From IMG/VR virus record IMGVR_UViG_3300027970_000044, positions 1 to 47,146 of that record: a stretch of DNA of 47,146 nucleotides; one strand, 5' to 3'. The notes below the pieces were generated by a model. That model was not told the origin of the DNA. It saw nothing but the letters and a program-made list of their open reading frames with translations, and did no database searches. Each line of letters begins with the position of its first letter. Positions within the stretch are counted from its first letter, which is position 1. Shown one piece after another: positions 11,468 through 45,316 of the stretch. The stretch is from a virus. The position numbers were made by a program, and so were the translations under genes.

Positions 11468-12268
11468 TCAGAGACTATTAATCCATTTAAAAGATTGATT
11501 AATTTGTTCTGAAAAGTCTTTCCCTAAAACCTCTTGCCAATCTTTTTTTAAGGGTTCAACTTTGTTTCTTATCTCATGATCTCCATAAGGCCAACCTAAT
11601 TCATGTTCCATTGTATATTGTTCCACGTTATTGAAGTCGTGCTTGAAAGGTTTTTCTTCAAGATATTTCCAAATTTCATTCATAGTATCTCTAGGATTTT
11701 CTGTAAGATCCTCAAAGTGAACAAAGTGAAGTTTGTCTTGATATCTTTTTACTGCATCTGAAAGTCTTTCTACAGCAATTCCAAGTGGTGGAATGTTTAA
11801 CCATCCTTGTGTTCTTTTTTCAACAGTAGTCCAATTTTGTGGGGATTGTTTTTCCACTCCAGTAAAAGGAAAAGGGTGTTGCCGCCATTTCTTTTCAAAC
11901 GAAGTAAGAATTCCACGCATGTCTCTTACGGGAACTAGAACCTTAGCATTGGGCCAAATAGCAAACAACATATCTAAATGTCCTACCCATGAACGGCATT
12001 TGTCTACTACTACTGGACGATCTGTCAATCTATTAAAAGCATTTTCACATCCTCCCTTGACATAATCATAGAATAATGTTTCCCCATCTTTGGGATCGGG
12101 AATGGTTTTAAATTCTTCTGTAGCTGAAAATTGCCGAGCAATATAACCAATTTCATGAAGACCGCTTGTGGCAGTAGAATGAACTCTAGGATTTTGAGCT
12201 AGAAGATTCATCAAGAGAGTGCTTCCTGCACGGGGCAGACCTGATACGAAGTGAATAGTTTTTGACAT
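11468..12268 (-). CDS. PAPS-dependent sulfotransferase, 266 aa
   Basis: Transfers sulfate from PAPS to a hydroxyl or tyrosine acceptor. The 5'-phosphosulfate loop is FVSGLPRAGSTLLMNLLAQ at residues about 7-25, similar to the PRSGTT loop of tyrosylprotein-type sulfotransferases. The 3'-phosphate region is VLVPVRDMRGILTSFEKK, with Arg and Ser in the expected places. I chose the ATG at 12268 over one nine codons upstream because the strand leading to the loop begins there. Sulfotransferases are known in some environmental phages. It lies between the LamG/leucine-rich-repeat adhesin and the glycosyltransferases, which suggests modification of a virion or host surface polymer. The acceptor is unknown. 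Confidence 0.85.
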   Translation of the reverse strand: MSKTIHFVSGLPRAGSTLLMNLLAQNPRVHSTATSGLHEIGYIARQFSATEEFKTIPDPKDGETLFYDYVKGGCENAFNRLTDRPVVVDKCRSWVGHLDMLFAIWPNAKVLVPVRDMRGILTSFEKKWRQHPFPFTGVEKQSPQNWTTVEKRTQGWLNIPPLGIAVERLSDAVKRYQDKLHFVHFEDLTENPRDTMNEIWKYLEEKPFKHDFNNVEQYTMEHELGWPYGDHEIRNKVEPLKKDWQEVLGKDFSEQINQSFKWINSL

Positions 12269-14154: not shown

Positions 14155-15927
14155 TTATTGGTTAGAAGCGAACACGTTCAACACAACACCAGCTTCCTGA
14201 ACTTCGTCAGAGAATGTGATGTCAAACCCATTCACAGTTTTGTTCTTGATCACATGGAAGTAAACAACTTCACCTTCAAGCGACGCATTAACAACTGGAA
14301 CAGACGAGAACGCACTTGGGAAAGAAACGGTCATTTGCTCAGTTCCCACTGGGATACTCACTGAAAATGCCTGCTGCTTTGAGAACAAGTTGTCCACATA
14401 ACCTTTTGTGGATGCATGGCTGGAAGTGGTAGGAGCGGCAACTTCAACAGTTCCACTGAATTTACCATTTCCAACAACTTCGAGAGCCTCAGTAGGAGCC
14501 TCTGTATTAACACCAACAACACCAGATCCAACGAACAATGAAGTCGCGCCAGCTCCACCAGCTATTTCTAAACCACCAGTAGCACTAATTGTACCATTGA
14601 CAGTAACATCACCAGTGATCGTACCACCAACGCGCTTGTCGAGATAGTTGTCTTCGATGTCGCTAACGCGGGTATCAAGAGCGCCTTCAGCAGTTGTCGC
14701 ACGGCTAACTTCAGCGGCAAGGTCAGCACTGATAGAAGCTTCAGCACCAGTTGCGCGAGTAACTTCAGCAGCAAGATCAGCACTGATGGAAGCCTCTGCG
14801 CCAGTGGCACGAGTAACTTCAGCAGCGAGATCAGAACTGATAGAAGCCTCAGCACCAGTGGCGCGAGCAACTTCGTCGGAGAGATCCGAAGCAATAGCTG
14901 CTTCAGCGGCTGTTGCGCGAGCAACCTCATCAGCCAAAGCCGAAGATGCACCAGTACTCAATGCAGCAATCGCGTCAGTGAGCGAACCGTCAGCGTTTTG
15001 AAACGCGGTCACAACTTCTGTGAGCGAATCAAGCGCGGTTGGGTCGATGTTACTGAGAACATTGTCAACTCTTGTATTAACAGAAGCTAAATCGGCTGAA
15101 AAAGAGCCAGAGATAGTTGAAATAGTCGAGTTAAGAGTACTAACCTCACTAGTAATTCTCGAATCAAGGGCTGAACCGCTTGAAGCAATACTTGAAGCCA
15201 AATCTCCACTTGCTTGAGCGAGTGATGATCTGATTGAAGTGTTGGTTGCTGACAAATCAGCAGCCAAATTGCCACTAACCGAATTAACATATGAAGTTAA
15301 ATTTGACCCAGTTGACTCAAGTCTGCTTGAAAGGTCACCACTAACTGATTCAATTTTTCCATTAAGAAAAAAACCAGAGGAGGCTAAATCACTTGCGAGC
15401 GAACCACTAACTGAATTGAGGGAGCTGTTTAAAGAAGCTTGAGCGGAAGCAAGACTCGAAGCTAAATTTGAACCAGTTGAAGCGATATCAGAAGCAAGAC
15501 TTCCACTAACTGAGACCAAAGATGCTTCGATATCTGAGCTGAAACTTGCGATACTTGATGTAAGATCACCAGAAAGAGCTGAGATGTTACCATTTATATT
15601 TGACAAGCTGTTTGTCAAACTTGTGGCGAAATTTTGATCATCACCAAGAGCGGCTGCCAACTCATTGAGGGTATTTAAAGCCTCAGGAGCCATATCAACA
15701 ACGGCAGCAATCTGCGCGTCGATTTTTTGGTCAAGAGTGCCATAAACACCAGAAATTGCTGTATTTAAATTATCAGTAGTGGAATCAATTCTAGAATTCA
15801 AAGCTGATTCAACATTTGAAAGCTCGGATACGAAAACCAAACTTCCACTATTGCCAACTTCAATTTTTCCATTTTTGCCACTAACACCTAAGTTACTTAA
15901 ACGAATTTGTTTGAATGCATTTATCAT
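14155..15927 (-). CDS. Long coiled-coil tail fibre, 590 aa
   Basis: A trimeric-fibre type protein. Residues 1-330 are Ser/Ala/Leu-rich heptad-like sequence with recurrent SVSGSLASDIASTGSNL units. Residues 333-422 hold five 18-residue repeats of the form AEVTRATGAEASISADLA. After VGGTITGDVTVNGTISATGG come a GVNTEAPTEALEV motif, a STKGYVD segment and a C-terminal domain of about 70 residues with FSVSIPVGTEQMTVSFPSAF and GFDITFSDEV. That last domain is shared with the neighbouring 161-aa protein. The gene is visibly richer in G and C than its surroundings. It has its own terminator and a GTGTAG element upstream. Confidence 0.88.
   Translation of the reverse strand: MINAFKQIRLSNLGVSGKNGKIEVGNSGSLVFVSELSNVESALNSRIDSTTDNLNTAISGVYGTLDQKIDAQIAAVVDMAPEALNTLNELAAALGDDQNFATSLTNSLSNINGNISALSGDLTSSIASFSSDIEASLVSVSGSLASDIASTGSNLASSLASAQASLNSSLNSVSGSLASDLASSGFFLNGKIESVSGDLSSRLESTGSNLTSYVNSVSGNLAADLSATNTSIRSSLAQASGDLASSIASSGSALDSRITSEVSTLNSTISTISGSFSADLASVNTRVDNVLSNIDPTALDSLTEVVTAFQNADGSLTDAIAALSTGASSALADEVARATAAEAAIASDLSDEVARATGAEASISSDLAAEVTRATGAEASISADLAAEVTRATGAEASISADLAAEVSRATTAEGALDTRVSDIEDNYLDKRVGGTITGDVTVNGTISATGGLEIAGGAGATSLFVGSGVVGVNTEAPTEALEVVGNGKFSGTVEVAAPTTSSHASTKGYVDNLFSKQQAFSVSIPVGTEQMTVSFPSAFSSVPVVNASLEGEVVYFHVIKNKTVNGFDITFSDEVQEAGVVLNVFASNQ
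14662..14931. repeat. 54-bp tandem repeats in the long fibre gene
   Basis: Five 18-codon units encoding the EVxRATxAEAxI pattern. The two central units are nearly identical, which suggests recent expansion. Confidence 0.8.
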
Positions 15928-22723: not shown

Positions 22724-23574
22724 GGGACTGTGACTGCTAAAGTGGAAGTTGCGGAAGTATAGGTTGCCGTTGTTCCAACTGGAACACCCACCAAAGTTAC
22801 TGATGCGTATGAATTAACTGTTGTCCCTTGGAAGAAGCGGAATGCCGTTACTCCAGAGGGAGGAGCGACATCGAATGAAACTGTTAACGGAAATCCACCA
22901 GACTGAAATTGTGCAGTTGCCGTGGACGCGCCAACAGTCTTTTTAACGCGGATAAAACCTGCTTGTATATTTGTAAAACCCGTGTAAGTAAGCGTTCCGT
23001 AAAGGTTTAAAAAACCATTGCCCGCCTTGGTTAAATTTCCTGCTCCAGAAATATTGCCCGAAATTGTTATTGTGTTTGCTCCTAAAGTGCGAAACTGTAG
23101 CGCTCCTGCGGTTAATACAAAATCGTTCGGCAAAGTTACAGCACCAGCAGACTGGATCGTGCCTCCGACAACACTAACAAAAGTCCCAGTTCCAAAAGCA
23201 TTTGACGAATTAAAGGTAATAGTTGACGCATTTTGAATTGTGCCTCCAGAATAAGTGTTGCTTGCGCCAAGACTTAAAGTCGATGCCCCAGTCTTTGTAA
23301 GTTGTCCTAACCCGCTAATTACTCCATTAAGTGTCGAGAAATTTGTAATAGTAATTGATCCAGTATTGATTTGAGTCAGCCCAGTATGACTACAGTTTCC
23401 AGATAGTGTCAAAGTCCCTGATCCGTTTTTTTCAAGTCCAATTGCTCCAGTTATTGTCGAAGAGATTGTTGTTGCGGCATAGCACATGAACTGTAAAGCG
23501 CTTGGCGTCGAAGATATAATTGCTCTTACAGAAGTTGCCCCAACACTTGCCGCACTGGATTCAGTTAAAATCAT
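22720..23574 (-). CDS. Fibre protein with autotransporter-associated beta repeats, 284 aa
   Basis: Three copies of the autotransporter-associated (PATR-type) repeat are visible: LEKNGSGTLTLSGNCSHTGL, LTKTGASTLSLGASNTYSGG and LTKAGNGFLNLYGTLTYTGF. These short beta repeats build the passenger stalk of bacterial autotransporters. No signal peptide or beta-barrel is present, so this is not an autotransporter but a fibre using the same fold. The last 70 residues form a different beta domain. Start and stop overlap the neighbouring genes (ATGA), so it is coupled to the large fibre upstream. Confidence 0.85.
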   Translation of the reverse strand: MILTESSAASVGATSVRAIISSTPSALQFMCYAATTISSTITGAIGLEKNGSGTLTLSGNCSHTGLTQINTGSITITNFSTLNGVISGLGQLTKTGASTLSLGASNTYSGGTIQNASTITFNSSNAFGTGTFVSVVGGTIQSAGAVTLPNDFVLTAGALQFRTLGANTITISGNISGAGNLTKAGNGFLNLYGTLTYTGFTNIQAGFIRVKKTVGASTATAQFQSGGFPLTVSFDVAPPSGVTAFRFFQGTTVNSYASVTLVGVPVGTTATYTSATSTLAVTVP

Positions 23575-25289
23575 CCGACGATTATATAAAGTGTTCCAGT
23601 TGCTGGAGTAACTATAGCATTATAACCAGACTGAGTTATTTGCAAAATATTGGCAAGTGAACTCGCGCCACTTAAACCCACAATATTAGAAGAAATAAAT
23701 CCACTTGGATTACTATTAAGATAATAGTCTCCAGCTGTTTGTTTTTGATTAAGAGAAGACTCTAGACCAGAAACGTCAGAAATTTGCAAATATTTTCCAG
23801 ACCACTGGCTTTCAATATTTTTAAATAAGAATTGACCAGTAGGCGAATTTTTTACATTAACATCATGCAATTCATCAAGCTCATAACCATTTTGAACTTT
23901 AACAAAAACTTCACCATTGTTATTTGTTCTAGTCACAACCCCAAGATAAACTAAATGATTCGGAGCAACCGGTTTATTCGCTAATCCATAAATCAAATTG
24001 CCAGTTGGACCAAGCCATATTGGATCTCCAGCAGCGGCAGAACCAACATTAAAATTAGACAATAATCCATCAGTGATAACTGTGCCAAAAGCATTTACCG
24101 CTAAACTATCCTGGTATATTAAACCTAAAGTTTTTGAAGAAGAGGCTTCTCCAGTGTTTGAGGCGAGACCAACAAGAATATTTCCACCAGCCGCACCATT
24201 GATATAAACTGGCTGACCTTTATAAAGCGTTCCAGTATGATTATTTTTTACGTTTACCTGAGCCGAATAAAGAACTCCGCTAATGATTGTATTATTTTGA
24301 ACTTCGCCTTCTAACAGAATCCCAGTTCCATTGACAGTTGGTCTTTGAATAAAGTTTTTAACCCCACTGATATTTTGATCACCTGTAGTATAGACTAAAT
24401 TCTCAATTCCGGTAATGAAGCCGCTAGGATTGTTTATTGAATAAGCTCCAACTTCAGAAGCGGTTGGAAATATATGAATATGGTCTGCTCTTGCCGCGTA
24501 AATAGAAGACCCTTCCGAAGCTGAGCCTGACAATGTGGATATTAATCTTGCTGCCGCTTCTTTAGTGACCACGACCCCATTATTATATGACACATTCCAA
24601 GGATATTCACCGCCAGTAACAATTGCATTCCCGAATTCAACATATAGACCATCACTATTTCTGTAAATATAATTCCACTTAAAAGCCTGACCAGCATAAG
24701 TATTCCCATAAGCCAATCCATAACTTATATCATCACTTGGAAAGGAGCCATCACTGTATAAAATGCTCGATACTCTGTCAAGCGGCGGACCCATTGGCAC
24801 ACCGGCTTTTGCCGAAAGATCTGGAATACTTACATAATCTGGATTTGGCTGAAATACGCCAGTAATGAAACCGCTCGGGTTATTATTCGTATAGAAATTA
24901 CTAGTATTAATGTCACCACTCAACATGAAAGGAATACTATTTACAAATGGACGTTCACTAAAAAATACTGATCCTGAAATGTCAAGCGAAGCCTGCGGAT
25001 ATTCATTGTTTATTCCAATTCTTCCAGATTCCACATATAGTACGGCTGGATTAGTGCCCGTTGACTTTATATATATATCGTTATTAAAAGTTTTGGCTCC
25101 GCTAATTGTTTGGTCACCAGTCGTATAAACTAAATTCTCAATACCAGTTATGAAACCGCTAGGGTTACTTATTGGATAACCGCCTAAATTACCCAAAGCT
25201 CCTGTTGCTGTGGAAGCATTTGTACCGCCCCCATAAATACTTCGGACTCCGTTGGTTTCGACTGTTGTTCCGTTAAATTTTGTGTTCAT
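23571..25289 (-). CDS. Modular tail fibre protein, 572 aa
   Basis: Begins MNTKFNGTTVETNGVRSI, almost the same as the next fibre. It contains two full copies of the fibre module NPSGFITGIENLVYTTGDQ plus ISG.K.F and two partial copies, and a GINNEYPQASLDISGSV unit. A distinctive middle part (about 300-480) with VYINGAAGGNILVGLASN and GTVITDGLLSNFNVG resembles domains of other phage fibres with internal chaperone-like repeats. The C-terminal 90 residues end in PATGTLYIIVG. No beta-helix of the NCTAG type is present, so it represents a different tip on a shared stem. Confidence 0.88.
   Translation of the reverse strand: MNTKFNGTTVETNGVRSIYGGGTNASTATGALGNLGGYPISNPSGFITGIENLVYTTGDQTISGAKTFNNDIYIKSTGTNPAVLYVESGRIGINNEYPQASLDISGSVFFSERPFVNSIPFMLSGDINTSNFYTNNNPSGFITGVFQPNPDYVSIPDLSAKAGVPMGPPLDRVSSILYSDGSFPSDDISYGLAYGNTYAGQAFKWNYIYRNSDGLYVEFGNAIVTGGEYPWNVSYNNGVVVTKEAAARLISTLSGSASEGSSIYAARADHIHIFPTASEVGAYSINNPSGFITGIENLVYTTGDQNISGVKNFIQRPTVNGTGILLEGEVQNNTIISGVLYSAQVNVKNNHTGTLYKGQPVYINGAAGGNILVGLASNTGEASSSKTLGLIYQDSLAVNAFGTVITDGLLSNFNVGSAAAGDPIWLGPTGNLIYGLANKPVAPNHLVYLGVVTRTNNNGEVFVKVQNGYELDELHDVNVKNSPTGQFLFKNIESQWSGKYLQISDVSGLESSLNQKQTAGDYYLNSNPSGFISSNIVGLSGASSLANILQITQSGYNAIVTPATGTLYIIVG
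25104..25191. repeat. 88-bp direct repeat, copy 1 (fibre gene 23571-25289)
   Basis: Base-for-base identical with 26783-26870 in the paralogous fibre gene. It encodes GGYPISNPSGFITGIENLVY and the following residues of the shared N-terminal module. Confidence 0.9.
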
Positions 25290-26968
25290 TCCGCTAATAC
25301 CTCTCCGTTTATAATATCTCCGTTGCCGTCAATGCAGTTAATCATAATAGCCTTTCCTGTTGCTGGCGTGGATAATACCTGAAATGTTCCAGAAATGAGA
25401 CGGCAGTTAGTAAGCGTACCGCTCACCGTTCCAACAACGTGCCCCTCTTGCGGACACGATCCAAAACTTCCCCAATCCCCAATGCAATTTACAAATGTAC
25501 CACTAGCTTCGCCCCACTCTCCACCAAAACAATGATCTCCTCCAACGCAATTAGTGAATCTACCAGTAGCTCTACCATAGTAGTTAGCACTAAAACCAAA
25601 ACTACCTCTACCAGCGATACAATTTACAAATGTACCTCCCGCGAATACCTCAGATGTGTATGAATAGCCAAAACTATTATCGCCCCCAGAACAATTCTCA
25701 AATATCTGTAAGGGCTTACTTACGAGCGTGAACTGACCCACGGAATCACTACCAGTTCTAAATGGCTGACTTCCAACTGAAATACCGCTTACACGCACAT
25801 CGTCCGCATAAACATTTAGAGTATTACCTCCAATCAAAACCGCAGGCTTTTGTGTCTGCGCTCCAAGTCCGATTAAGTCAACAAACTCTGCGTCGATAGC
25901 AAGCTCGGCGGATAGCGTGTAATTGCCAGGAAAAATGATAAGACTTGCGCGATTTGTTGCTGATAAAGCCGATCCGTTTGGCGTTAGTGCTTTTGCTGCT
26001 GTATATTTTGCCGCAAGATCATCTCCGGGCTGCGCTACAACATAAGAATTAGTTTGACTATAAACTATGTTATCTGCTTCAAGATGTTGGAATACTCCAG
26101 TAACACCGCTAATTATTCCTGTTGTTGTAACATCAATTACTTCATTTATATATGTTGTTCCAGAAACTGCAAAATTACCAAGAATAGTGACATCATTTGG
26201 AAATGTTTTAATACCGCTGATTGTTTGATCGCCAGTTGTATAAACCAAATTTTGAATTCCCGTAATGAAACCACTAGGATTATTATTTGGATAGAAATTT
26301 GATATGTCAATATCTCCGCTTAGCATTACTCCAGTAGTATTTACAATTGGGCGCTGACTAAACAATGCCAAACCTGAAACATCAAGTGACGCCTGTGGAT
26401 TCTCATTATTTATGCCCACTGCGCCAGACAATACATACAAAGTGGAAAGACCTAGCATCGATCCAACTTCTAAACCTTGTTCGAAAGTTTTTATCCCACT
26501 AATTGTTTGATTGCCAGTAGTGTAAACCAAATTTTGAATTCCCGTAATGAAACCGCTAGGATTATTATTTGGATAGAAACTCAAACTATTAATATCGCCA
26601 CTAAGCATGACACCAGTACCATTTACAGTTGGACGCTGGCTAAATAATACCGAACCAGAAACATCAAATGCCGCTTGCGGATCTTCATTATTAACGCCAA
26701 CAAGTCCAGAGCCAACATATAAAGTAGAAATTCCGACTTGCAAACCCGCGTCTATTCCGTCTGAAAATATTTTTCTACCAGAAATTGTTTGGTCACCAGT
26801 CGTATAAACTAAATTCTCAATACCAGTTATGAAACCGCTAGGGTTACTTATTGGATAACCGCCTAAATTAGCCAACGCCCCAATTGCAGAATCAGCATTG
26901 GTTCCGCCACCAGAAATCGCGCGGACGCCATTCGTTTCTACTGTAATTCCATTAAATTTTTTATTCAT
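25286..26968 (-). CDS. Modular tail fibre with beta-helix, 560 aa
   Basis: I place the start at 26968 (MNKKFNGITVETNGVRAI) because the paralog at 25289 starts at the same point. An upstream ATG at 27001 would overlap the preceding gene by 29 bp, whereas 26968 leaves a 4-bp gap. Three NPSGFITGI.NLVYTTG modules with GVNNEDPQAAFDVSG-type spacers form the stem. Then come a pectate-lyase-like section (VVAQPGDDLAAKYTAAKALT, RASLIIFPGNYTLSAELAID) and a beta-helix of repeated NC.GG..SFG rungs. The C-terminus ends CIDGNGDIINGEVLAE, shared in form with the other beta-helix fibres. Confidence 0.9.
   Translation of the reverse strand: MNKKFNGITVETNGVRAISGGGTNADSAIGALANLGGYPISNPSGFITGIENLVYTTGDQTISGRKIFSDGIDAGLQVGISTLYVGSGLVGVNNEDPQAAFDVSGSVLFSQRPTVNGTGVMLSGDINSLSFYPNNNPSGFITGIQNLVYTTGNQTISGIKTFEQGLEVGSMLGLSTLYVLSGAVGINNENPQASLDVSGLALFSQRPIVNTTGVMLSGDIDISNFYPNNNPSGFITGIQNLVYTTGDQTISGIKTFPNDVTILGNFAVSGTTYINEVIDVTTTGIISGVTGVFQHLEADNIVYSQTNSYVVAQPGDDLAAKYTAAKALTPNGSALSATNRASLIIFPGNYTLSAELAIDAEFVDLIGLGAQTQKPAVLIGGNTLNVYADDVRVSGISVGSQPFRTGSDSVGQFTLVSKPLQIFENCSGGDNSFGYSYTSEVFAGGTFVNCIAGRGSFGFSANYYGRATGRFTNCVGGDHCFGGEWGEASGTFVNCIGDWGSFGSCPQEGHVVGTVSGTLTNCRLISGTFQVLSTPATGKAIMINCIDGNGDIINGEVLAE
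26783..26870. repeat. 88-bp direct repeat, copy 2 (fibre gene 25286-26968)
   Basis: Identical to 25104-25191. The flanks diverge sharply on both sides, which fits recombination or gene conversion between paralogous fibre genes. Confidence 0.9.
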
Positions 26969-26972
26969 ATTT

Positions 26973-27281
26973 TTAAAATCTAATTTGTTTGTGTTCCCCA
27001 TTTAGGCGACAATTAATTATACCAATTTTGTTTGGTAGCAAAACATCTACAGAAATAAATTCCGCGCCTTCAATATTGTGCTGATCATACAGATCTTGCG
27101 CAACACTAGCGTCTTCAGCATCGGCCGAAGTAAACGATTCGGCGATTACGCGCTCTGAAAGACTTTTTCTATCCAAACGCTTGTCTTCATTAAAATTTTG
27201 AAGCAATGTTTTTTCTTCTTCGTTTAGTTCTATAGCGACTTTTTGTTTCCACTGATTATTTAATAATGTTAGATTTTTCAT
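26973..27281 (-). CDS. Small protein between fibre genes, 102 aa
   Basis: I chose the ATG at 27281 (KNLTLLNNQWKQKVAIELNE) because it lies just after the stop of the preceding fibre at 27296; the longer frame from 27344 would run back into that gene. The N-terminal half is helical and charged, the C-terminal half (GAEFISVDVLLPNKIGIINC) is beta-rich. It could be a fibre assembly chaperone by location; I recognise no family. Confidence 0.75.
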   Translation of the reverse strand: MKNLTLLNNQWKQKVAIELNEEEKTLLQNFNEDKRLDRKSLSERVIAESFTSADAEDASVAQDLYDQHNIEGAEFISVDVLLPNKIGIINCRLNGEHKQIRF

Positions 27282-27295
27282 ACTTCGTTGATCTT

Positions 27296-28669
27296 TTATT
27301 CGGAGGCTTCCCCTTCTATAATATTCCCGTTTCCATCCATGCAATTCACCATTATTGCTGGACTTGGGCGCGGAAAAAAGGAAGGAGGGACTACTCGAAC
27401 GGAAGGGGTAGGAAATTCTCCCCCAGTAACTCGGCAGTTAAAAAAAACGCCATTTGCTGAAGAGTTATCGAGACCGAAGCTGACCGCCCCCGCCGTGCAG
27501 TTCATAAAGGTTCCACTTGCAAGACTGTAAAGCCCCCCAAAACTACCTGCTCCTGCCACGCAGTTTAGGAATTTTCCACTTGCTACACCGAAGTAGCCAG
27601 CAAAACTAGCCCCTCCTGCCGTGCAGTTCATAAAAGTTCCGCTTGCCCCGCCGCCGTATTGACCCGCGAAGCTATAATTCCCTGCCGTGCAGTTCGTAAA
27701 TATTCCGGACGCTGCTCCATAGTCAGCCCACGCTCCGAAGCTGGTATTTCCGGCTACACAGTCTGTAAATGTTCCCGTTGCAAAACTTCCACCAAAACAG
27801 TAATTGCCCCCAGTGCAGTTAGTAAATGTCCCATTTGCAAGGCCATAACTCTGTCCGGCAAAGCTGTAATTTCCGGCTATACAGCCCGTAAATACCCCAT
27901 TTACACCCCCATAAACACCAGCATTAAAACTACCATCGCCTGCTATACAACTGATAAAAGTCCCGCTTATGTGTTCTTCGCGCCCAACATTAAAACTAGA
28001 TTCCCCTCCAACACAATTTTCAAAAACTTGAAGTGGTTTATTTCCAGCGATATAAAACCTTTGTGTTCCAACGGAAATTCCGCTAATGCGAACATCGTCC
28101 GCAGTAACACTTAGAGTATTTCCACTAATTAAAACAACAGGTTTTTGCGTTTGCGCTCCCAGACCAATTACATCAATAAATTGCTCATCAATAGCAAGTT
28201 CAGCAGATAAAGTGTAAGTTCCAGGAAAAATGATAAGACTTGCGCGATTTGTAGAGGACTTAGCTGAACCGTTAGGTCTCAGTGCTTTTGCCGCTAAATA
28301 TTTTGCCAATATATCATCTCCAGGCTGGACAACAACAGAAGAAGTAGTTTCGCTATATACTATATTGTCCGCCTCAAGATATTGAAAAACGCCTGTTACA
28401 CCACTAATGACGCCCGTGGTTGTAACATCAATTACTTCATTTATAAAGGTTGTGCCAGAAACTGCAAAATTCCCAAGTATGGTGACGTTATTTGTAAAAG
28501 TTTTAATCCCGCTAATTGTTTGATCACCTGTAGTATAAACCAGATTTTCGATTCCAGTTATGAAGCCGCTTGGGTTGCTTAGCGGATAAAACCCCGACGC
28601 GGCAACTGGAGTGTTATCTACCTGAGTAGAAATACTTCTTTCTATGCTAAGTATAGATTGGTTAATCAT
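27296..28669 (-). CDS. Tail fibre with beta-helix of NC-SFG rungs, 457 aa
   Basis: A short unique N-terminus is followed by one fibre module (NPSGFITGIENLVYTTGDQ), a spacer with FAVSGTTFINEVIDVTTTG, the pectate-lyase-like section (VVQPGDDILAKYLAAKALR ... LIIFPGTYTLSAELAID) and about ten beta-helix rungs of roughly 20-26 residues each, with the pattern GTF.NCTAG..SFG. The spacer and helix parts closely match the fibre at 25286-26968, so these are recent paralogs. The final 40 residues (MVNCMDGNGNIIEGEASE) form a cap similar to that of the paralog. Confidence 0.9.
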   Translation of the reverse strand: MINQSILSIERSISTQVDNTPVAASGFYPLSNPSGFITGIENLVYTTGDQTISGIKTFTNNVTILGNFAVSGTTFINEVIDVTTTGVISGVTGVFQYLEADNIVYSETTSSVVVQPGDDILAKYLAAKALRPNGSAKSSTNRASLIIFPGTYTLSAELAIDEQFIDVIGLGAQTQKPVVLISGNTLSVTADDVRISGISVGTQRFYIAGNKPLQVFENCVGGESSFNVGREEHISGTFISCIAGDGSFNAGVYGGVNGVFTGCIAGNYSFAGQSYGLANGTFTNCTGGNYCFGGSFATGTFTDCVAGNTSFGAWADYGAASGIFTNCTAGNYSFAGQYGGGASGTFMNCTAGGASFAGYFGVASGKFLNCVAGAGSFGGLYSLASGTFMNCTAGAVSFGLDNSSANGVFFNCRVTGGEFPTPSVRVVPPSFFPRPSPAIMVNCMDGNGNIIEGEASE

Positions 28670-37050: not shown

Positions 37051-37542
37051 TCACTCTATTTCAATATGTCTTTTTGTAGAAGAAGCCTCAGCTTTAAACT
37101 CCTCAAGAACTTGTTCTCTTGTTTTTTTAAATTCAAAATTTTCAAATTTAAAATCATTCGAATCAGATGGCGAAGATGACGCCTCCTGCATTAAAGATCC
37201 GAATGAAATACCTTTATTTTTTTCATAACCTTCAACCGAAACCCCAGCGCCAGGTTTTATACTTGAGATAATAGAATGCAAATCAGAACAATAATATTCT
37301 TGATCACTGTTGTCGTCCTCACTTTCAAATTCGTCAACTTCAATTTTTTTAATACTTTTTGGAATCTTTTTAATTTCCACATTTCTAGTTTTCGAATTTT
37401 CCTCGCTTTGAGGCATTGACGCGCTGATATTTTTTTTAACTGTAGAGTCAGAAGATACTTTAGTTCCACATTCTTGGCAAAATTTCGGTTTAGAAAACTT
37501 ATATTCGCTTTTTGAAAAACAATTTGAACAATAATAATTCAT
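37051..37542 (-). CDS. Zinc-ribbon protein with acidic disordered tail, 163 aa
   Basis: Residues 4-25 form a Cys4 zinc ribbon (YYCSNCFSKS ... FCQECGTKV). The rest is low-complexity, with an acidic run (VDEFESEDDNSDQEYYCSD) and a helical end (TREQVLEEFKAEAS). It starts at the divergent interval shared with the plus-strand metallopeptidase and precedes the sigma-like gene by 24 bp. A regulatory or transcription-associated role is plausible by context, but the sequence shows only the metal-binding module. Confidence 0.8.
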   Translation of the reverse strand: MNYYCSNCFSKSEYKFSKPKFCQECGTKVSSDSTVKKNISASMPQSEENSKTRNVEIKKIPKSIKKIEVDEFESEDDNSDQEYYCSDLHSIISSIKPGAGVSVEGYEKNKGISFGSLMQEASSSPSDSNDFKFENFEFKKTREQVLEEFKAEASSTKRHIEIE

Positions 37543-37602: not shown

Positions 37603-38253
37603 ATGAAAATAAATATTTCAAACCAGCTCAAAATAAAAAACTTCGTAAACTTTGTTAAAAGTAAATTATCCGAAAAAGATGGAAAATTAATACTGAGAAA
37701 TAAAATAGCAAATGGTGGAACGCAAGATGGTGAATTTTGCGAGAAAACAAATACAATAAGGTGCAAAAAAAATAATAATTCATATTACTGGCTGGGAGTT
37801 TTAGCGCATGAATATTCTCATTTTATTCAATCGTCAAATAAAACTAAATTTTGGACGAATTTTCAAAAAAATATTAACAAATTAAAAAATGTAGATGTTA
37901 TTTTAACTGCTAAAGATTCGGCAAGAAAAGAAAGTTTTAATAAAAAAGATAGAGAAAAAATAGTTTCATCAATAATTGATATGGAGCTAGAATGTGAAAA
38001 AATGGCTCTAGAATTTGTAAAAAATTTCGACCTGCCAATAAATAAAGAAGAATATATAATTTTATCAAATGTTATATTCTATAAATATTTATATTGGGCG
38101 GAATACCAGATCTGGCCATCTTTCAAAACATCGTCAATAAAAAAATGGGACGAAGAGCTGATTAAAAAAATGAAAACTTTCGGAAATCGCCGCAGTTATA
38201 AAAATTTTTCAGAAATACCGCTGAGTGTCTTAGTTTGTTTTGAAAATACTTAG
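37603..38253 (+). CDS. HExxH zinc metallopeptidase, 216 aa
   Basis: VLAHEYSHFIQ (His69, Glu70, His73) is the zinc and catalytic motif. MELECEKMALEF (Glu128 or Glu130) offers the third ligand expected of gluzincin or ImmA/WLM-type peptidases. No signal peptide or TM segment, so it acts in the cytoplasm or virion. Basic, Lys-rich overall. It is isolated on the plus strand between two minus-strand units, with its own GTGTAA element. Its substrate is unknown; phage ImmA-like peptidases often cut regulators. Confidence 0.83.
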   Translation: MKINISNQLKIKNFVNFVKSKLSEKDGKLILRNKIANGGTQDGEFCEKTNTIRCKKNNNSYYWLGVLAHEYSHFIQSSNKTKFWTNFQKNINKLKNVDVILTAKDSARKESFNKKDREKIVSSIIDMELECEKMALEFVKNFDLPINKEEYIILSNVIFYKYLYWAEYQIWPSFKTSSIKKWDEELIKKMKTFGNRRSYKNFSEIPLSVLVCFENT

Positions 38254-38255
38254 TA

Positions 38256-39128
38256 TTAATTTTCAAAAATCGGCTCCACTCTGCGTCTGTCCTCAATGGC
38301 TTTAATACTCGGCTTTTTAATTAGTCCAGTTTTTTCCATTACAAATCTAAGCAGTCCAGATCTTACTATGTCATTGTATTCTCTTAATTCAAAACAACTT
38401 ATTCCAAATTCACGACTTTCTTCGTCGTTAAACATTTCAAACATTTTTCTGAAACCAGACTTTGAACCAATATCATTCTGATTAATAGAGTCACCTACGA
38501 AAAAAATTCTTGTAAACTCACCACATCTAGTCAAGACAAGAAAGAGATCGTCCCAAGTCATAGAACTAGCCTCATCAACGATAATAGCCTTGCAATTCCA
38601 AGAGCGCCCTCTCACAAAACCTACCGGATAGCAATTAATTCTATTATCTTTCTTCAACTTTTGAATGTCTGACTCCGGTAACATTTCTTCCAACTTATCA
38701 AAAAGAATAGCATTGTAAGGAGCCATTTTTTCCTCACTAGTACCTGGAATAAAACCAATTTTACCGGTAGTAGAAGACTCTACAGGATTTCTAATAAAAA
38801 TAATCTCATCTATTTTTTTATCATTAAGTAATTTTAAAGACGAGTAAACGCTAAGATAACTTTTAGATGTTCCATACAGGCCGTCTATAAAAATACATTT
38901 AGTACCGCGCTTTGTTGCAACTTCAACTATTTCTTTTTGCTTTTCAGTCAAATCATTTCGCGCTTTAATATTTAATGAAAAACTAATTTTAGGTCTTTGG
39001 GTCACATGCATTGACTTATCTTGCCTATCTTCCGATACATTCCGTACAGCGTCAATCTCGGAATTTTTAGTTTTAACTGCCGCCCGGCTAGATGTTTTAC
39101 GCACCCTTAAGTTTTTATTTTTCGACAT
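38256..39128 (-). CDS. phoH: PhoH-like ATPase, 290 aa
   Basis: A P-loop ATPase of the PhoH family, common in environmental phages. The Walker A is GLYGTSKS (83-90), where the usual GTGKT is changed to GTSKS. Walker B is AIIVDEASSMT (181-191; usual DEAQN). Family landmarks IRNPVESSTTGKIGFIPGT and YPVGFVRGRSWNCK (here RGRSW instead of RGRTL), and VGDSINQND, are in the right order. The first 60 residues are a basic, disordered extension. Its role is unsettled (RNA-linked or phosphate-response). It ends 2 bp from the end of the convergent metallopeptidase gene. Confidence 0.92.
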   Translation of the reverse strand: MSKNKNLRVRKTSSRAAVKTKNSEIDAVRNVSEDRQDKSMHVTQRPKISFSLNIKARNDLTEKQKEIVEVATKRGTKCIFIDGLYGTSKSYLSVYSSLKLLNDKKIDEIIFIRNPVESSTTGKIGFIPGTSEEKMAPYNAILFDKLEEMLPESDIQKLKKDNRINCYPVGFVRGRSWNCKAIIVDEASSMTWDDLFLVLTRCGEFTRIFFVGDSINQNDIGSKSGFRKMFEMFNDEESREFGISCFELREYNDIVRSGLLRFVMEKTGLIKKPSIKAIEDRRRVEPIFEN

Positions 39129-39144
39129 ATATTTTTATAAATAT

Positions 39145-39150
39145 TTACAC
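39145..39150 (-). promoter_or_regulatory. GTGTAA element upstream of PhoH gene
   Basis: Minus strand GGGTGTAAATATTTATAAAAA, 22 nt before the start at 39128. Together with the plus-strand copy at 39196 it makes a divergent pair 45 bp apart. Confidence 0.6.
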
Positions 39151-39195: not shown

Positions 39196-39201
39196 GTGTA
39201 A
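39196..39201 (+). promoter_or_regulatory. GTGTAA element upstream of plus-strand protease island
   Basis: Plus strand TTAAGTGTAAAAATCAAAATGG. The first base is 14 nt from the ATG at 39210. Confidence 0.62.
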
Positions 39202-39209
39202 AAATCAAA

Positions 39210-39767
39210 ATGGAATCAAGTAATAAAAGTATAAAACTAGGATTGCCAGCTCGCGCAATAAATGAGCCCGAAAGCGCCGTTGTTGCAAACGCTGGCGCAC
39301 CAGCTGAATCTATTGGTGACTTTAATTTTATCAATGGCATTTATTTATCAAATGGCAAATTGGGGGGCAAAATTAGTTTCGAAAAAACTGTCGTACTAGG
39401 GTCTTACCCTTATAAGACGCTTATTAATTGGAATAAGGATTTTAAATATTGGATTATCTCATTCCTTGGTGGACCAACATATACTCATCCATTTGAGGAA
39501 GAATCCCTAATCTATCCTGATTCGTACGAGATAAAACCAGGAGACGTGATTTATTCACCAGCATATCAATACATATCTTTTTCCGATGTTGAGACGCCAG
39601 ATCTGGCTCAGAATTGGATAAAGTCATTTGAATATGGAACAGTCTCAACCCCACAAGTACTTTTAAAATACAAATATTCAAACTTTAACAATGTGGAAAA
39701 CCCAAGTCAAGCTGGTATTTTTAATTTAAGGTATGAAAATGGAAGCATCGACTGGGCCGCAAATTAA
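39210..39767 (+). CDS. Hypothetical beta-rich protein heading the protease island, 185 aa
   Basis: Not recognised. Starts MESSNKSIKLGLPARAIN, and residues 45-180 are rich in aromatic and beta-prone residues (FKYWIISFLGGPTYTHPF, DSYEIKPGDVIYSPAYQYIS). No signal peptide, no cysteines. Its N-terminal KLGLP phrase resembles the KKLGLS near the start of the next protein, perhaps a shared targeting or docking segment. A virion-surface or protease-partner role is an open question. Confidence 0.82.
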   Translation: MESSNKSIKLGLPARAINEPESAVVANAGAPAESIGDFNFINGIYLSNGKLGGKISFEKTVVLGSYPYKTLINWNKDFKYWIISFLGGPTYTHPFEEESLIYPDSYEIKPGDVIYSPAYQYISFSDVETPDLAQNWIKSFEYGTVSTPQVLLKYKYSNFNNVENPSQAGIFNLRYENGSIDWAAN

Positions 39768-39799
39768 AACAAATAAAACAACAACAATATAATAAAAAT

Positions 39800-41185
39800 A
39801 TGGAAAACAATAAATTAAAAAAATTAGGACTATCAAATGTTTGCCCCTCTCTCTGTTACGAAGGAACAAGCGATTTGGAAACCACAATTGTAGCTCAAAG
39901 TAATTATAATTCAAGTAGCAGAATCATGACTTTTAATGTAAAAAATAATTTTACATATCCTGTTTGGTTACATACGTTGCCGATAGAGCCTACGGAAGGC
40001 GGAGAGATACAAAATCCAGGATTATTCAAAGTTAAAAAAAACAATGAAGAAGTTTTGTATCAGGGAAGAATATCTGCGGCTAGCCGTGTCCATAGTTTAG
40101 AATTTTATAGCAAAATAGAGCCAGGCGAAACATATTCATTCGAATTCAATCCTGGTCTTTCATTTGAAATGCAAGACGCTGGAAGTTATTCAATAGAATA
40201 TATTGGTGATTTAAATTATTTAAAATATGATCCCATAGCCGCCAAAGTAGCAAGCGATGAAGAAAATTCAACCATTTTTTTTCCAGAAATTTCTAGTGAG
40301 CAAATTGAATCGGGTCAACCTGGTTCAAATCTAGAGTCGCCTATTTCAAATTTTACATTAAACAACGATACATCTGGGTCAACAACGATAAATAATGAAG
40401 TATTAACGCCCGTCTCCACGCAAGCTACTTTCGTAACAGCTCCACTCGCGTCAAGTTCATTGGCAATTTCAAGTATTTCTGAAGAATCAATTGAAAGTAA
40501 ATATGATTCCACAAATGCATTCTTTCTTTCAACTGGTGGAGTCGCATGGACCGAGACATCTAAAAGAGAAGTAATCGGAGCCAGAGTATATTCAAAGTAT
40601 TACGCAGATAGAGGCGCTTCAGCAGCTCATCCTGGAAAATATTTCGAAAGATGGTTCGGAGAAGGCGGTCATAGAAATGAATGTACAAATGTTTATATAG
40701 ATGGAAACTGCGTAGGAATAGGTAATAAAAGATTTAAATGTCGTTTGACTGGACGCGAAGGATGGAAAAATAATAAAGCGGGCTGCAATGCAGAATGCGG
40801 CAAATGGGAAAGAAGATGCAAAACTGTTTCAACACAGCCTGAGAGAGCGAATCGCGTCAGAGGAGCTTGTCAAAACAATTCAAGCATAAGTGGCTCTAGA
40901 TATATCAATTGGATTAGAGAAAGTTGTCCAAGAGGCTATTTAGCTTACGTTTATTCTGATAGACCAAATCATGTATGGCTTTGCAATTATTGTTATTTTT
41001 ATAATGGTGCTGGTTATATATCAGGCGAATTAATTGAAACAATATTGCACGAATTTTTTCATCACGCGGGGGTAACGCAAGACCATGCCTATGGAACACA
41101 AGAATGTTTAAGTTTAGCTAGAAATAGTCAGGTAAAGGCATTGAACAATGCAGACAGTTATACTTATTTTAGCATGCGAGCTTAA
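39800..41185 (+). CDS. M35-type (Asp-zincin) metalloprotease, 461 aa
   Basis: The C-terminus carries the full M35/lysine-specific metalloendopeptidase pattern: TILHEFFHHAGVTQDHAYGT (His417, Glu418, His421, Asp428 as third zinc ligand in GxTxDxxYG) and, 24 residues on, ALNNADSYTYFS. The N-terminal part (about 25-135, FTYPVWLHTLPIEP ... VLYQGRISAAS ... IEPGETYSFEF, DAGSYSIEYIG) matches the beta-sandwich prodomain of bacterial and fungal M35 enzymes. A Ser/Thr-rich linker follows, then a Cys-rich middle (about 295-390). These proteases are normally secreted, but no signal peptide is present here, so delivery with the virion or release at lysis is likely. It lies between an unknown protein and a serine protease. 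Confidence 0.87.
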   Translation: MENNKLKKLGLSNVCPSLCYEGTSDLETTIVAQSNYNSSSRIMTFNVKNNFTYPVWLHTLPIEPTEGGEIQNPGLFKVKKNNEEVLYQGRISAASRVHSLEFYSKIEPGETYSFEFNPGLSFEMQDAGSYSIEYIGDLNYLKYDPIAAKVASDEENSTIFFPEISSEQIESGQPGSNLESPISNFTLNNDTSGSTTINNEVLTPVSTQATFVTAPLASSSLAISSISEESIESKYDSTNAFFLSTGGVAWTETSKREVIGARVYSKYYADRGASAAHPGKYFERWFGEGGHRNECTNVYIDGNCVGIGNKRFKCRLTGREGWKNNKAGCNAECGKWERRCKTVSTQPERANRVRGACQNNSSISGSRYINWIRESCPRGYLAYVYSDRPNHVWLCNYCYFYNGAGYISGELIETILHEFFHHAGVTQDHAYGTQECLSLARNSQVKALNNADSYTYFSMRA

Positions 41186-41210
41186 AAATAAATAATTTCA
41201 AATTGAAAAG

Positions 41211-42728
41211 ATGACTACAGAACAAATATTAGACTTTATAAATCAAAACCCTCAATTTGATTTAAAAGGAGCTGGCATTCAAAGAAAGAATGTAAATGGA
41301 CAGTTTACAGAAGAATTGGCGCTAGCGTTATATGTTAGTGAAAAAAAATCTGTTGATAAAATTCCTGAAAATGAAATTATTCCCGATAAGATATTTGTTA
41401 CTGGCTTAGGCTGGGTTAAAACTGACGTAATGGAAGGTGACAATGTAATTGAAGAATGTGCTGATTGCGATGCCACAACTTTTGCCACAGGCTCTCGCGG
41501 GGGATTTATAAGACCGAATAGAAATGTAAATAGACCGGTTCGTGGAGGCGTTTCAATTTCATCAATCCCAAGTGGAACATCTACACATCGAAATACAAAT
41601 TATTTAGGAACATTGGGCTTTATTGCTGTAGATGCACTTGACGATTCGCTTGTAGCCGTAACCAACCATCACGTTGGATCATTCAATTCAGAAATTCCAG
41701 TGGTCGGAGGCGGCACTTCTGGCGCTGCTGGAACATCGGCTCATTACAGAACCATTGGATCTACTAAATTTCTAAACTCGACAGATGTTTATAATTTTGA
41801 TCAATATAGAATAGAGCAGTCCCAAAAAAATGATTTTGCCGCCAATATGTACTATAGGAACAGTAGCTTTGGCACTGCTGCTACTTATTATCCAGATGGA
41901 AGATATGAAAAAGCTCTAACCGTCGGGTACCTTAAAAGATACATGCCAATTAGCACTAGCAATAATTTTTTAGATTGCTGCGTAATTGGTTTGAATCAGG
42001 AAACTGTTACGGGCATTGTTTCAGTGCCAAATGCAGCTAATACTCAGTCCCTTTTAGTAGATCTAGGTAAAAACGTCATCGGCACAAACTCTTGGCAAGT
42101 TCTTAATCATGATTTGATGAACAACCAAATATATTATCCGTTCGCAACAACAGACGAAATAAACTCAATGACGGGGATAGCTTTTAGAAGTCAAAATACA
42201 CCAGCTACTCCAAATATGGTCATAGCAGGAAGGTCAACTGGCTTAAAAGGTCAGCCCAACAATCCTTTGGCTGTGCCTACAAATGCATCATGCCTATTAC
42301 AAGTAATAAACAATAATTTTATAGTAAATGCTTTAAATTTGCAAAATACGATAAGTAATTTCGTAAATTGTATAACTTATACATGGAAATCTTGTACAAA
42401 TACAGCCAGCTCAGTAGGTGGAGATTCAGGATCTGCCGTACTTGGAAGATTCGACGGCATTTGGAAAATTGTTGGGATACACTTTGCCGCCAGTACTTCT
42501 AGCAAAGAGGGTAGAGGCATTAGAATAGACAACATAGCGCCGCTTTTAAAAATAAAACCATACATGGGTCAACCTGTAAATAATCCAGTTACTGGCGGGG
42601 TAAGCAATAGAAGAACTTTAATTGTAAAAAATAAACAATCAGTTCCATTTTTTACACACACCGATGGTCGCACGTATTACCAGATGGGAACAACAACCGG
42701 CACTTCAAATTTGAATAACATCCCTTAA
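41211..42728 (+). CDS. Trypsin-fold serine protease, 505 aa
   Basis: Catalytic triad candidates are His154 in VAVTNHHVGS, Asp255 in NNFLDCCVIG and Ser406 in SVGGDSGSAVLG, with the later WKIVGIHFAAS strand that closes the specificity pocket. The first 80 residues (NGQFTEELALALYVSEKK, IPENEIIPDKI, KTDVMEG) match the N-terminal domain of bacterial Nal1-like or S1-type proteases that start with a self-blocking beta domain. No signal peptide. It is 26 bp downstream of the metalloprotease gene and likely co-transcribed. Function could be virion-associated digestion of host surface proteins or processing of phage proteins. Confidence 0.87.
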   Translation: MTTEQILDFINQNPQFDLKGAGIQRKNVNGQFTEELALALYVSEKKSVDKIPENEIIPDKIFVTGLGWVKTDVMEGDNVIEECADCDATTFATGSRGGFIRPNRNVNRPVRGGVSISSIPSGTSTHRNTNYLGTLGFIAVDALDDSLVAVTNHHVGSFNSEIPVVGGGTSGAAGTSAHYRTIGSTKFLNSTDVYNFDQYRIEQSQKNDFAANMYYRNSSFGTAATYYPDGRYEKALTVGYLKRYMPISTSNNFLDCCVIGLNQETVTGIVSVPNAANTQSLLVDLGKNVIGTNSWQVLNHDLMNNQIYYPFATTDEINSMTGIAFRSQNTPATPNMVIAGRSTGLKGQPNNPLAVPTNASCLLQVINNNFIVNALNLQNTISNFVNCITYTWKSCTNTASSVGGDSGSAVLGRFDGIWKIVGIHFAASTSSKEGRGIRIDNIAPLLKIKPYMGQPVNNPVTGGVSNRRTLIVKNKQSVPFFTHTDGRTYYQMGTTTGTSNLNNIP

Positions 42729-42761
42729 TTCTTTGAGTTAATTAATTTAAATAAATAAGAA

Positions 42762-42929
42762 ATGAATAATTTTATCGTTATAAAAGATTCTGTTAAGATA
42801 TTGGATAATGTAAAGTTTATGCAAAATGTATATACCCCAACAGAAGAAGAAATTCCTTGGCTTGATGAGGGTTACTGGGTAGACGAAATGCCGTGGTCGC
42901 TGGCAATGTTAAATAAAAAACAAAATTAA
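42762..42929 (+). CDS. Small acidic protein, 55 aa
   Basis: From ATG at 42762 to TAA at 42927-42929, encoding MNNFIVIKDSVKILDNVKF, then EEEIPWLDEGYWVDEMPWSL. Strong codon structure and three Trp residues make it look real. It ends the plus-strand island, just before a small convergent hairpin. No family recognised; a protease inhibitor or cofactor is a possibility given its neighbours, with no direct evidence. Confidence 0.65.
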   Translation: MNNFIVIKDSVKILDNVKFMQNVYTPTEEEIPWLDEGYWVDEMPWSLAMLNKKQN

Positions 42930-42960: not shown

Positions 42961-43311
42961 CTACCATTTATCGATTGGACATTTTTCAGTATCCATTTTC
43001 AATTTAGCCATTGTAGAACAACCGCATTTTTTACAACGACCAGTATTTGCTAAGGCGGCTCCATCCCAAAAGTCGCACCCCTTACATATTTCTAATCTTT
43101 CGTTAAATTTTTCAGAACTAGCGGTTTGAAATCCTGACCTAGCCCACTTTACTGCGCTCTTAGAGACGCTAGAAAACATTTTTCTTATTCCTGGTGGAGT
43201 AAATTCAGAATTATCCTCTTCCTCTTTAGAAATTATTAAAAAGTCAGGGTATTCAGTTGCTGGAAAATATTCAGTTTGAGTTTTATTCTCTTTCATAAAC
43301 TTGCGAAGCAT
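42961..43311 (-). CDS. Small protein with C-terminal Cys-rich zinc motif, 116 aa
   Basis: The last 45 residues carry ICKGCDFWDGAALANTGRCK, then CGCSTMAKLKMDT and ECPIDKW-type ending: a CxxC...CxxCGC...CPxxKW pattern that recurs in small phage-encoded zinc proteins. The first 70 residues are hydrophilic. Its ATG lies 29 bp inside the end of the preceding large gene (a second ATG at 43296 would still overlap), so the two are co-transcribed. Function unknown. Confidence 0.82.
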   Translation of the reverse strand: MLRKFMKENKTQTEYFPATEYPDFLIISKEEEDNSEFTPPGIRKMFSSVSKSAVKWARSGFQTASSEKFNERLEICKGCDFWDGAALANTGRCKKCGCSTMAKLKMDTEKCPIDKW

Positions 43312-45316
43312 AGTGGACTAAGCATTTGGTTTGCCCATTTGACGGGGCGTTGATAGATAAACTTTTCGTGACGCTTTGTCCACCCTTCATTACGAAAGTA
43401 CTAGTATTTTCTGTAAAAAGCCTAGTACGGCAATTATTTAAATCAAAATTTGATTCCAAAACGGTCTGAAAATGAACATCGAAATCTTTTTCCGGATCAT
43501 ATCCATCCATTAAGATATCAAAATCTACATAAGTTTCAGCACTGTTCATTGTTCCATCCGTAGCTATTGATAACCAAGCACAAGTGCCGCCATCTTCTGA
43601 CCAATTTTTAGTATCGTAATTTTTTGGATCGCTAAAAGCTGCCTCATCAACAAGGTCAGAATATGTACTGACAACAGTTGTGCCGCCAGAGCCCGTTGAA
43701 TCGTTACTAGATGTCCAAATACAGGTTCCACTGCCATAGTCTTCAGTAGATACACACTTAAAATTGCTGCTTTGATTTATAGTGTGTACCCTAGTTATAG
43801 CAGCTCCATTTACTGAACACGTCCAAGTACCGGTTTGTTTATGAACACTAGGTCCACCAGGTTGCAGTAGACCATTGCAGTCATATTCTCTGGTTTCTTC
43901 TCTGGTAATAGACGGGCAACATGCGCTAACAATACAGTCCTCATTTGAATACCAGCTATCCAACCCATAATCATGCCACCCTTCATCACATTGCGGATCT
44001 ACCTCCGCCCCACCCCCTGGATCTTTACAGGTCCAACTATACGAACCAGAATCTGGTGGCTGCGAGTCAAACCAATTTACATCAAAACTATAACTGCCTT
44101 TCTTCTCATTGCTGCCCGTCTCTGTAACTTTTCCATCGCATGTCGTTGTTACTGTATAAGTACTATTGGCGGAATTATTTTGGTAGTTGTAGCTGCTGGA
44201 AGCTTCACCACATTCATATGGATTTCCTTGCGTAATTACTGAATTCGAACTTGATACAGATGAATATCTTGTCCATGTTGTTGTCACAGATCTGTATTTT
44301 TTACAATCGGGACCAGTAAAATACTGAGTACATTTAATTTCCTGATCTTCTTCTCCTTCATTTTCAGATGGAATATACCTTTTTAAAGTTTTTGTAGAAT
44401 AGTCAGTAGTTGAATTAACATTTACTTGAGCAGAAGATGCTCCCGTGCAAGAACCCCCCACTACAACAAACTCTTGAGAAAATACGCCCCCACTATTTGG
44501 ATTAAGAGTAATTATTTGATCTTTTACTCCCACGAATTCCTCTTCGTCAGAAGCACTATCCGAATAAATGGTAATTATCTTGTAATTTATGTTTCTTTTT
44601 AATTTGATGATGCATTTTGTTAGCTCTACAACACCTCTTGAATCGTTTGATATGGCGATTGTAGATACTCCGCTGCTCCATTTTAAAACCGATTGACCAT
44701 TAGATCCAACCGCAACCTCGCCAGACGTGTTTGGCCCAGGTAAATCACTAATTCCATATTTAGTAAGTAAGTTTCTAGCCCTAGTTATAACATTATGTAT
44801 TGTATTTGGCTCAGAAAGAGAATAGGTGGTGCTTGGAGCAGCAGTTGACTCGCCCTCTTTTGGGACAGTCGTACTGCCTTCACAATCGCATGGGTCAGAA
44901 ACCGGATTCGTACATGTATAACTCTTACTTGTAGGTGAACAAGTTTCCTCACAATCTGCTGTTCCACCACCGCAATAAACGGTTCTATTCTCAAGTCCAA
45001 TGGTGCAAGCTAATCCCGTATATTCGTCTAATTTTGTAGTTATAGTTAAATCTCCAATTCTCTTAGACCCATTGCAAGTATATTCAATTGCGTTAGTGCA
45101 TTTAGAAGAGTATTTTAAATATCTCGTGTCGCTTTGAATAGGCGTATCTTTATCGCAAGTAAATTCATTATATCCTATATGCCATTGAGTAACTTTAAAT
45201 GACCAAGCTTCATAGGGGCAATTGCATCCTCCCACGCAAGACGAATTTTCAGGGCAAAATCCCCCTGCACATTCGCAAGACGAAATAACTTTTGGAACTG
45301 TGTATGGCAGTGGCAT
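43283..45316 (-). CDS. Large Cys-rich virion or fibre protein candidate, 677 aa
   Basis: Unrecognised. Cysteine-dense from the start (SSCECAGGFCPENSSCVGGC, NCPYEAW), with many CN or CxxC-like pairs spread over beta-rich, Ser/Thr/Gly-rich sequence, and no signal peptide or TM. The final 100 residues contain ETYVDFDILMDGYDPEKDFD and are low in Cys. The composition resembles phage surface adhesins that form disulfides outside the cell. It sits downstream of a collagen-like protein in the same direction, which suggests a fibre complex. Confidence 0.8.
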   Translation of the reverse strand: MPLPYTVPKVISSCECAGGFCPENSSCVGGCNCPYEAWSFKVTQWHIGYNEFTCDKDTPIQSDTRYLKYSSKCTNAIEYTCNGSKRIGDLTITTKLDEYTGLACTIGLENRTVYCGGGTADCEETCSPTSKSYTCTNPVSDPCDCEGSTTVPKEGESTAAPSTTYSLSEPNTIHNVITRARNLLTKYGISDLPGPNTSGEVAVGSNGQSVLKWSSGVSTIAISNDSRGVVELTKCIIKLKRNINYKIITIYSDSASDEEEFVGVKDQIITLNPNSGGVFSQEFVVVGGSCTGASSAQVNVNSTTDYSTKTLKRYIPSENEGEEDQEIKCTQYFTGPDCKKYRSVTTTWTRYSSVSSSNSVITQGNPYECGEASSSYNYQNNSANSTYTVTTTCDGKVTETGSNEKKGSYSFDVNWFDSQPPDSGSYSWTCKDPGGGAEVDPQCDEGWHDYGLDSWYSNEDCIVSACCPSITREETREYDCNGLLQPGGPSVHKQTGTWTCSVNGAAITRVHTINQSSNFKCVSTEDYGSGTCIWTSSNDSTGSGGTTVVSTYSDLVDEAAFSDPKNYDTKNWSEDGGTCAWLSIATDGTMNSAETYVDFDILMDGYDPEKDFDVHFQTVLESNFDLNNCRTRLFTENTSTFVMKGGQSVTKSLSINAPSNGQTKCLVHYASQVYERE

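Follow-up and report, generated by a model that had tools for sequence, protein, structure and literature searches.

A NAL1-like serine protease and a rare M35 metalloprotease predicted in an accessory cassette of an uncultured tailed phage

The 47,146-base viral DNA of IMG/VR record IMGVR_UViG_3300027970_000044, analyzed here over its full length and referred to as the window, carries a plus-strand island of four open reading frames (ORFs), which an earlier note on the same DNA had delimited correctly: orfA (39210-39767), a predicted M35 metalloprotease gene (M35; 39800-41185), a predicted serine protease gene (SerP; 41211-42728), and a short ORF (42762-42929). In our assessment, there is about an even chance that the island constitutes a late-expressed, accessory cassette of cargo genes occupying a variable slot next to phoH, and that SerP, whose family often lies among tail or fiber genes, and M35 are displayed on the virion and cut host proteins. 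Among the uses that the earlier note had offered, we favor the one on the virion because of a late-type promoter-like motif, the structural neighborhood of SerP genes, C-terminal domains that SerP proteins have in common with large neighboring proteins, and an N-terminal peptide, and from these we infer the location.

SerP is a protein of 505 amino acids (aa) that matched the PHROG family phrog_20754, annotated as "protease" (E = 5.9e-9). A three-member alignment (the window, the distant relative L038, and a 143.7-kb relative) retrieved a family of 47 viral loci, these three included, on contigs of up to 322 kb. Within 35 aligned members, His154 (TNHHV; 41670-41672, plus strand) and Ser406 (GGDSGS; 42426-42428, plus strand) are invariant, and Asp255 (LDCCVI; 41973-41975, plus strand) is retained in 34, giving a His-Asp-Ser triad in chymotrypsin order. 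As an AlphaFold model built from two sequences reached a predicted local distance difference test (pLDDT) value of just 28, the family was first enlarged to 35 sequences, with which the predicted TM-score (pTM) was 0.74 and the mean pLDDT 65, the loops being poorly modeled. A Foldseek search with this model returned rice NARROW LEAF 1 (NAL1) for all of the top 34 PDB matches (best E = 9e-14), which supports the trypsin fold that had been claimed for the protein. Moreover, a profile search linked the SerP family to NAL1 (E = 1.4e-6), and 11 of the 35 members matched the Pfam family NAL1_N (best E = 6e-7), although the SerP of the window, taken by itself, stayed below the cut-off (12.7 bits versus 27). 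Because of the Foldseek, profile, and NAL1_N matches, SerP is predicted to be a NAL1-like phage protease. Its N-terminal region, previously described as a pro-like domain, resembles the N-terminal domain of the NAL1 family instead. None of the 44 members checked for it has a hydrophobic N-terminal run, and a genome scan with the SerP alignment, limited to two patterns, detected no bacterial relatives. Apparent tandem duplicates of NAL1-like proteases were also seen in large phages (L182: 7974-9812 and 9824-11752; L187: 6686-7951 and 7968-9254).

Virion structural, tail fiber, tail, and baseplate wedge proteins are among the PHROG families that surround SerP in 22 phages, together with some DNA-metabolism families, and the majority of the neighbors are unannotated. 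The SerP proteins of several phages have a C-terminal extension that matches the end of a large protein, whose gene lies close by in that phage or in related ones; for example, the SerP of L204 is 43% identical over 117 aa to a 1202-aa protein, and that of L191 likewise matches a 1010-aa protein. Some of these shared C-terminal domains are preceded by long Thr-Pro linkers, and several SerPs bear extra PKD, Ig-like, or Thr-Pro-linked domains. In L038, an Ig/FN3-like domain is common to SerP and orfA, and in the 143.7-kb relative, the gene next to SerP is fiber-like, its matches to BNR and BppL_N not reaching the Pfam cut-offs. That SerP genes adjoin very large, probably structural genes would also suit an enzyme of virion maturation, with SerP, and perhaps M35, processing giant tail or fiber proteins during assembly; virion protein processing is common in phages. 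In a survey of jumbo-phage peptidases, those whose occurrence follows virion type are proposed to serve maturation (PMC7824862). Nevertheless, we regard a maturation role as improbable: the patchy presence of SerP (2 of 13 close-clade slots) and of M35 (in no relative) is unlike that of an essential step, and the extra SerP domains suit a displayed enzyme better.

The M35 protein (461 aa, plus strand) matched the Pfam family Aspzincin_M35 (PF14521; E = 4.4e-19, 69.8 bits with a cut-off of 30) and the solved M35 enzymes 2x3a (E = 1e-13) and 1g12 (E = 1.7e-6), in agreement with the type originally proposed. Following an N-terminal KKLGLS peptide, it is laid out as a beta-sandwich (aa ~42-155), a Ser/Thr-rich linker, a Cys-rich insert (aa ~290-350), and a catalytic domain (aa ~344-460), with 13 Cys in total. 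A genome scan yielded 136 bacterial relatives, mostly bearing signal peptides (Massilia, Colwellia, and others), of which 80 were kept and 28 entered the motif alignment. Against the HExxH...TxDxxYG pattern of these 28 proteins, the window M35 retains the zinc-binding HEFFH (41048-41062, plus strand), the third zinc ligand Asp and the AYG turn downstream in VTQDHAYG, and the NADSYTYF motif. A bacterial M35 profile built without the window matched both the catalytic domain (68 bits) and the N-terminal beta-sandwich (29 bits), so that the claimed beta-sandwich domain and, together with the SerP triad, the conserved catalytic residues are borne out. Taken together, the window M35 is a predicted enzyme, a zinc protease of the bacterial secreted type.

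As the earlier note had read from the sequence, the two proteases are unrelated, and neither has a signal peptide; the M35 N terminus lacks a hydrophobic signal sequence and is followed by a prodomain-like N-terminal domain. After HExxH, the window M35 has a two-residue deletion in common with a minority of bacterial M35s, among which L111, L131, and L147 are apparently without a signal sequence as well. L131 and L147 are Oxalobacteraceae proteins whose open frames exceed 1000 aa, and they may take a different export route. In the M35 tree, the window sits on a very long branch at a position that the tree does not settle, and no donor can be named for this reason.

A search of the other 41 clade contigs and of 36 SerP-bearing phage contigs found no M35; matches of 15-16 bits in two relatives fell in frames with stops and were judged chance. 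A narrow-pattern viral scan, which was not exhaustive and in which many contigs were fragments, recovered only the same island. An M35 of this type appears to be almost never seen in phages. Since no other searched phage contig has M35 and SerP often occurs without it, the notion of the two proteases as a co-evolved paired system was rejected.

The absence of signal peptides, M35 relatives that are secreted and whose N-terminal region resembles a prodomain, and a Cys-rich M35 that probably folds best outside the cell would also be expected of soluble lysate proteases. Such enzymes, independent of the virion, would build up in the cytoplasm until lysis frees them and would then digest extracellular proteins or those of the debris, releasing nutrients or removing receptors, vesicles, or surface layers. 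The late-type motif described below also fits such enzymes. We consider this possible but unlikely; the structural surroundings of SerP, the C-terminal domains shared with large neighbors, and the N-terminal peptide that orfA and M35 have in common with a fiber-like protein speak against it.

The promoter-like motif GTGTAA lies 14 nucleotides (nt) upstream of orfA (39196-39201, plus strand), within AGTGTAAAAAT, and a second copy in the same intergenic region (39145-39150, minus strand) belongs to the divergent phoH. In the window, 10 of 24 GTGTAA sites are located in 60-nt upstream regions (0.8 expected; 1 for the reverse-complement control), and in the distant clade 66 of 130 are (4.0 expected; control 2), an exact ratio that is inflated by some near-duplicate loci. 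In both, the motif is positioned 10-30 nt upstream of the starts. The 143.7-kb relative has GTGTAA before the portal, tape-measure, and fiber genes, and no gene at 60-80 kb, the dnaB region, is preceded by it. We found no paper on GTGTAA as a late promoter. The motif is a candidate late-type promoter, from which we infer a late timing for the cassette. GTGTAA was also noted before many structural genes of the window and of the G032 loci (L226, L097, L098, and L227-L231), and a Shine-Dalgarno-like site precedes only 5 of the 51 window genes.

In addition, five clade proteins carry KLGL[SPAT] within their first 20 aa, whereas 0.22 would be expected: orfA, M35, the orfA of L038, the fiber-like neighbor of SerP, and an 85-aa protein with GTGTAA. 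In the mechanism that we favor, the cassette would be made late, together with the structural proteins and without export; the KLGL peptide would act as a docking tag for the particle, used by orfA and M35, and SerP would dock via its own domains. Particles would then exit at lysis with the two proteases on the tail or fibers, where these would cleave proteins on the host surface or outside the cell as the phage adsorbs. The Cys-rich nature of M35 and its mostly secreted bacterial relatives are in favor of such an external location. More tentatively, and on balance doubtfully, KLGL(S/P) may be a plug-in docking tag by which this large-phage clade displays unrelated proteins, including a captured M35, on the virion beside a NAL1-like protease, and NAL1-like proteases may form an as yet undescribed, general class of virion enzymes with protein receptors or surface layers as their targets.

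Several observations weigh against display on the virion. GTGTAA precedes phoH and the HExxH gene too, so it is no proof of a virion location; the KLGL motif is short and was noticed first and counted afterwards, and SerP itself has no such peptide. The catalytic Asp is replaced by Glu in the SerP of L038, the large proteins with SerP-like C termini have no PHROG function, and M35 could merely diffuse in the lysate.

The slot that holds the island lies on the divergent side of the phoH-like gene (38256-39128, minus strand; PF02562, E = 3.8e-37), which forms its core border, and the slot contents vary between relatives. Of the 13 close-clade loci that show 1.5 kb or more of this side, 2 have SerP in the slot (the window's own copy and L038), and the rest contain tail-fiber-like or unrelated genes; the gene beginning MINAFKQIRL in L024, L027, and L043 is tail-fiber-like and homologous to window positions 14155-15927. 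The first gene of the island, orfA (185 aa, plus strand), begins with a KLGLP peptide and gave no match in Pfam and PHROG scans. Among the loci searched, it was seen solely in the window's copy and in L038, whose homologue is 46% identical and has C-terminal Ig/FN3-like repeats. In L038, orfA directly adjoins SerP, and in the window M35 lies in between. The 55-aa ORF after SerP (42762-42929, plus strand), which is open in the window and in a near-identical contig and has no Pfam or PHROG family match, may or may not be a real gene.

A patchy distribution and the lack of signal peptides might likewise be expected if the proteases cut host defense or regulatory proteins in the cytoplasm, as agents of host takeover or counter-defense. 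Plant NAL1 acts on substrates that are intracellular proteins. For phage peptidases with a patchy distribution, the jumbo-phage survey mentions host proteins as proposed targets (PMC7824862). We nonetheless judge an intracellular role very unlikely, given the Cys-rich M35, the surface-type accessory domains in the SerP family, the late-type motif, and neighbors that are mostly structural rather than early or defense genes.

The window is a complete IMG/VR record, linear and without tRNA genes. It is a predicted fragment of an uncultured large tailed phage, because its minus strand encodes a terminase, a portal-like protein, a truncated tape measure, an endolysin, and many tail genes. The phage collection held no record matching M35, SerP, or the window DNA, and the window terminase found matches of only 23-24%. 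The clade comparison covered 80 loci whose terminase genes are related. The island recurs in a second contig, IMGVR_UViG_3300028114_000101, the alignments showing 2 mismatches in 15 kb and 3 in 22 kb. As these two near-identical contigs may represent one population, the better independent support comes from L038, where orfA and SerP occupy this same position next to phoH. The second contig and the L038 arrangement rule out the concern, raised earlier, that the island is an assembly artefact or contamination from the host.

A further HExxH (zincin-like) gene, which the earlier note had pointed out near the island, does lie on the same strand (37603-38253, plus). However, it is a core gene of the clade, retained in 41 of 41 relatives with invariant H69, E70, H73, and E128 and always antiparallel to a zinc-ribbon-like neighbor (37051-37542); phoH sits between it and the island, and its membership in the island was ruled out. 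Elsewhere in the window, the tail genes at 23571-28669 contain internal repeats in blocks of ~77-85% DNA identity, suggesting duplication or recombination among tail proteins. The protein at 11468-12268, starting MSKTIHFVSGLPRAGSTLL, looks like a sulfotransferase from its motifs, and its PHROG match is a family of unknown function. A 677-aa protein at 43283-45316 (minus strand) has a Cys-rich N terminus (SSCECAGGFCPENSSCVGGCNC) and no family match.

Phage particles carry enzymes that cut sugars and peptidoglycan. To our knowledge, virion enzymes that cut proteins and are aimed at the host surface have hardly been described. If the favored role holds, NAL1-like virion proteases would be the protein counterpart of polysaccharide depolymerases, and the widespread family, with its conserved triad and structural-gene setting, makes the surface-protease idea directly testable. 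A captured rare M35 with the terminal peptide of its neighbor would in turn show how particles gain new enzymes.

The M35 and NAL1-like enzymes are each of known kinds. In the literature searched, which left most subscription journals uncovered, we found neither the pair, for which the earlier note knew of no described phage system, nor an M35 in a phage, nor any mention of a structural setting for the NAL1-like family. The jumbo-phage peptidases are phage-encoded like SerP and M35, and some have structural roles; the types named there include S77, XkdF, ClpP, SprT, ArdC, and NlpC, and the word trypsin does not occur in the main text (PMC7824862). The bacterial M35 aspzincins of the 2x3a type (Massilia, Colwellia, and others) share with the window M35 an N-terminal beta-sandwich, a catalytic domain, and the HExxH...TxDxxYG...NADxxxYF pattern, with ~40% identity over 84 residues, whereas the window M35 lacks a signal peptide and has a Ser/Thr linker and a Cys-rich insert. 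The peptidyl-Lys metalloendopeptidase (1g12) has the same Pfam family and catalytic motif but is fungal, secreted, and single-domain. SerP and its relatives match PHROG 20754 (E = 6e-9 to 2e-13), for which no function beyond "protease" is recorded, and the best viral structural match to SerP is the model of A0A7S9XDX3 from Virus NIOZ-UU157 (E = 1e-25, TM 0.68/0.76). NAL1 itself (PDB 8pml, 7y77, and 8hau; Pfam NAL1_N) has the same two-part fold as the SerP model, its TNxHV and GDSGS motifs align with those of the SerP family, and the N-terminal domain profiles are alike. However, the phage members are only 11-14% identical to NAL1, have long inserts and in some cases C-terminal PKD, Ig-like, or Thr-Pro extensions, and are encoded in phage structural regions. 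The NAL1 relationship and the structural context of the phrog_20754 family, both worked out in the present analysis, join a plant growth regulator and leaf-shape enzyme to a phage enzyme family.

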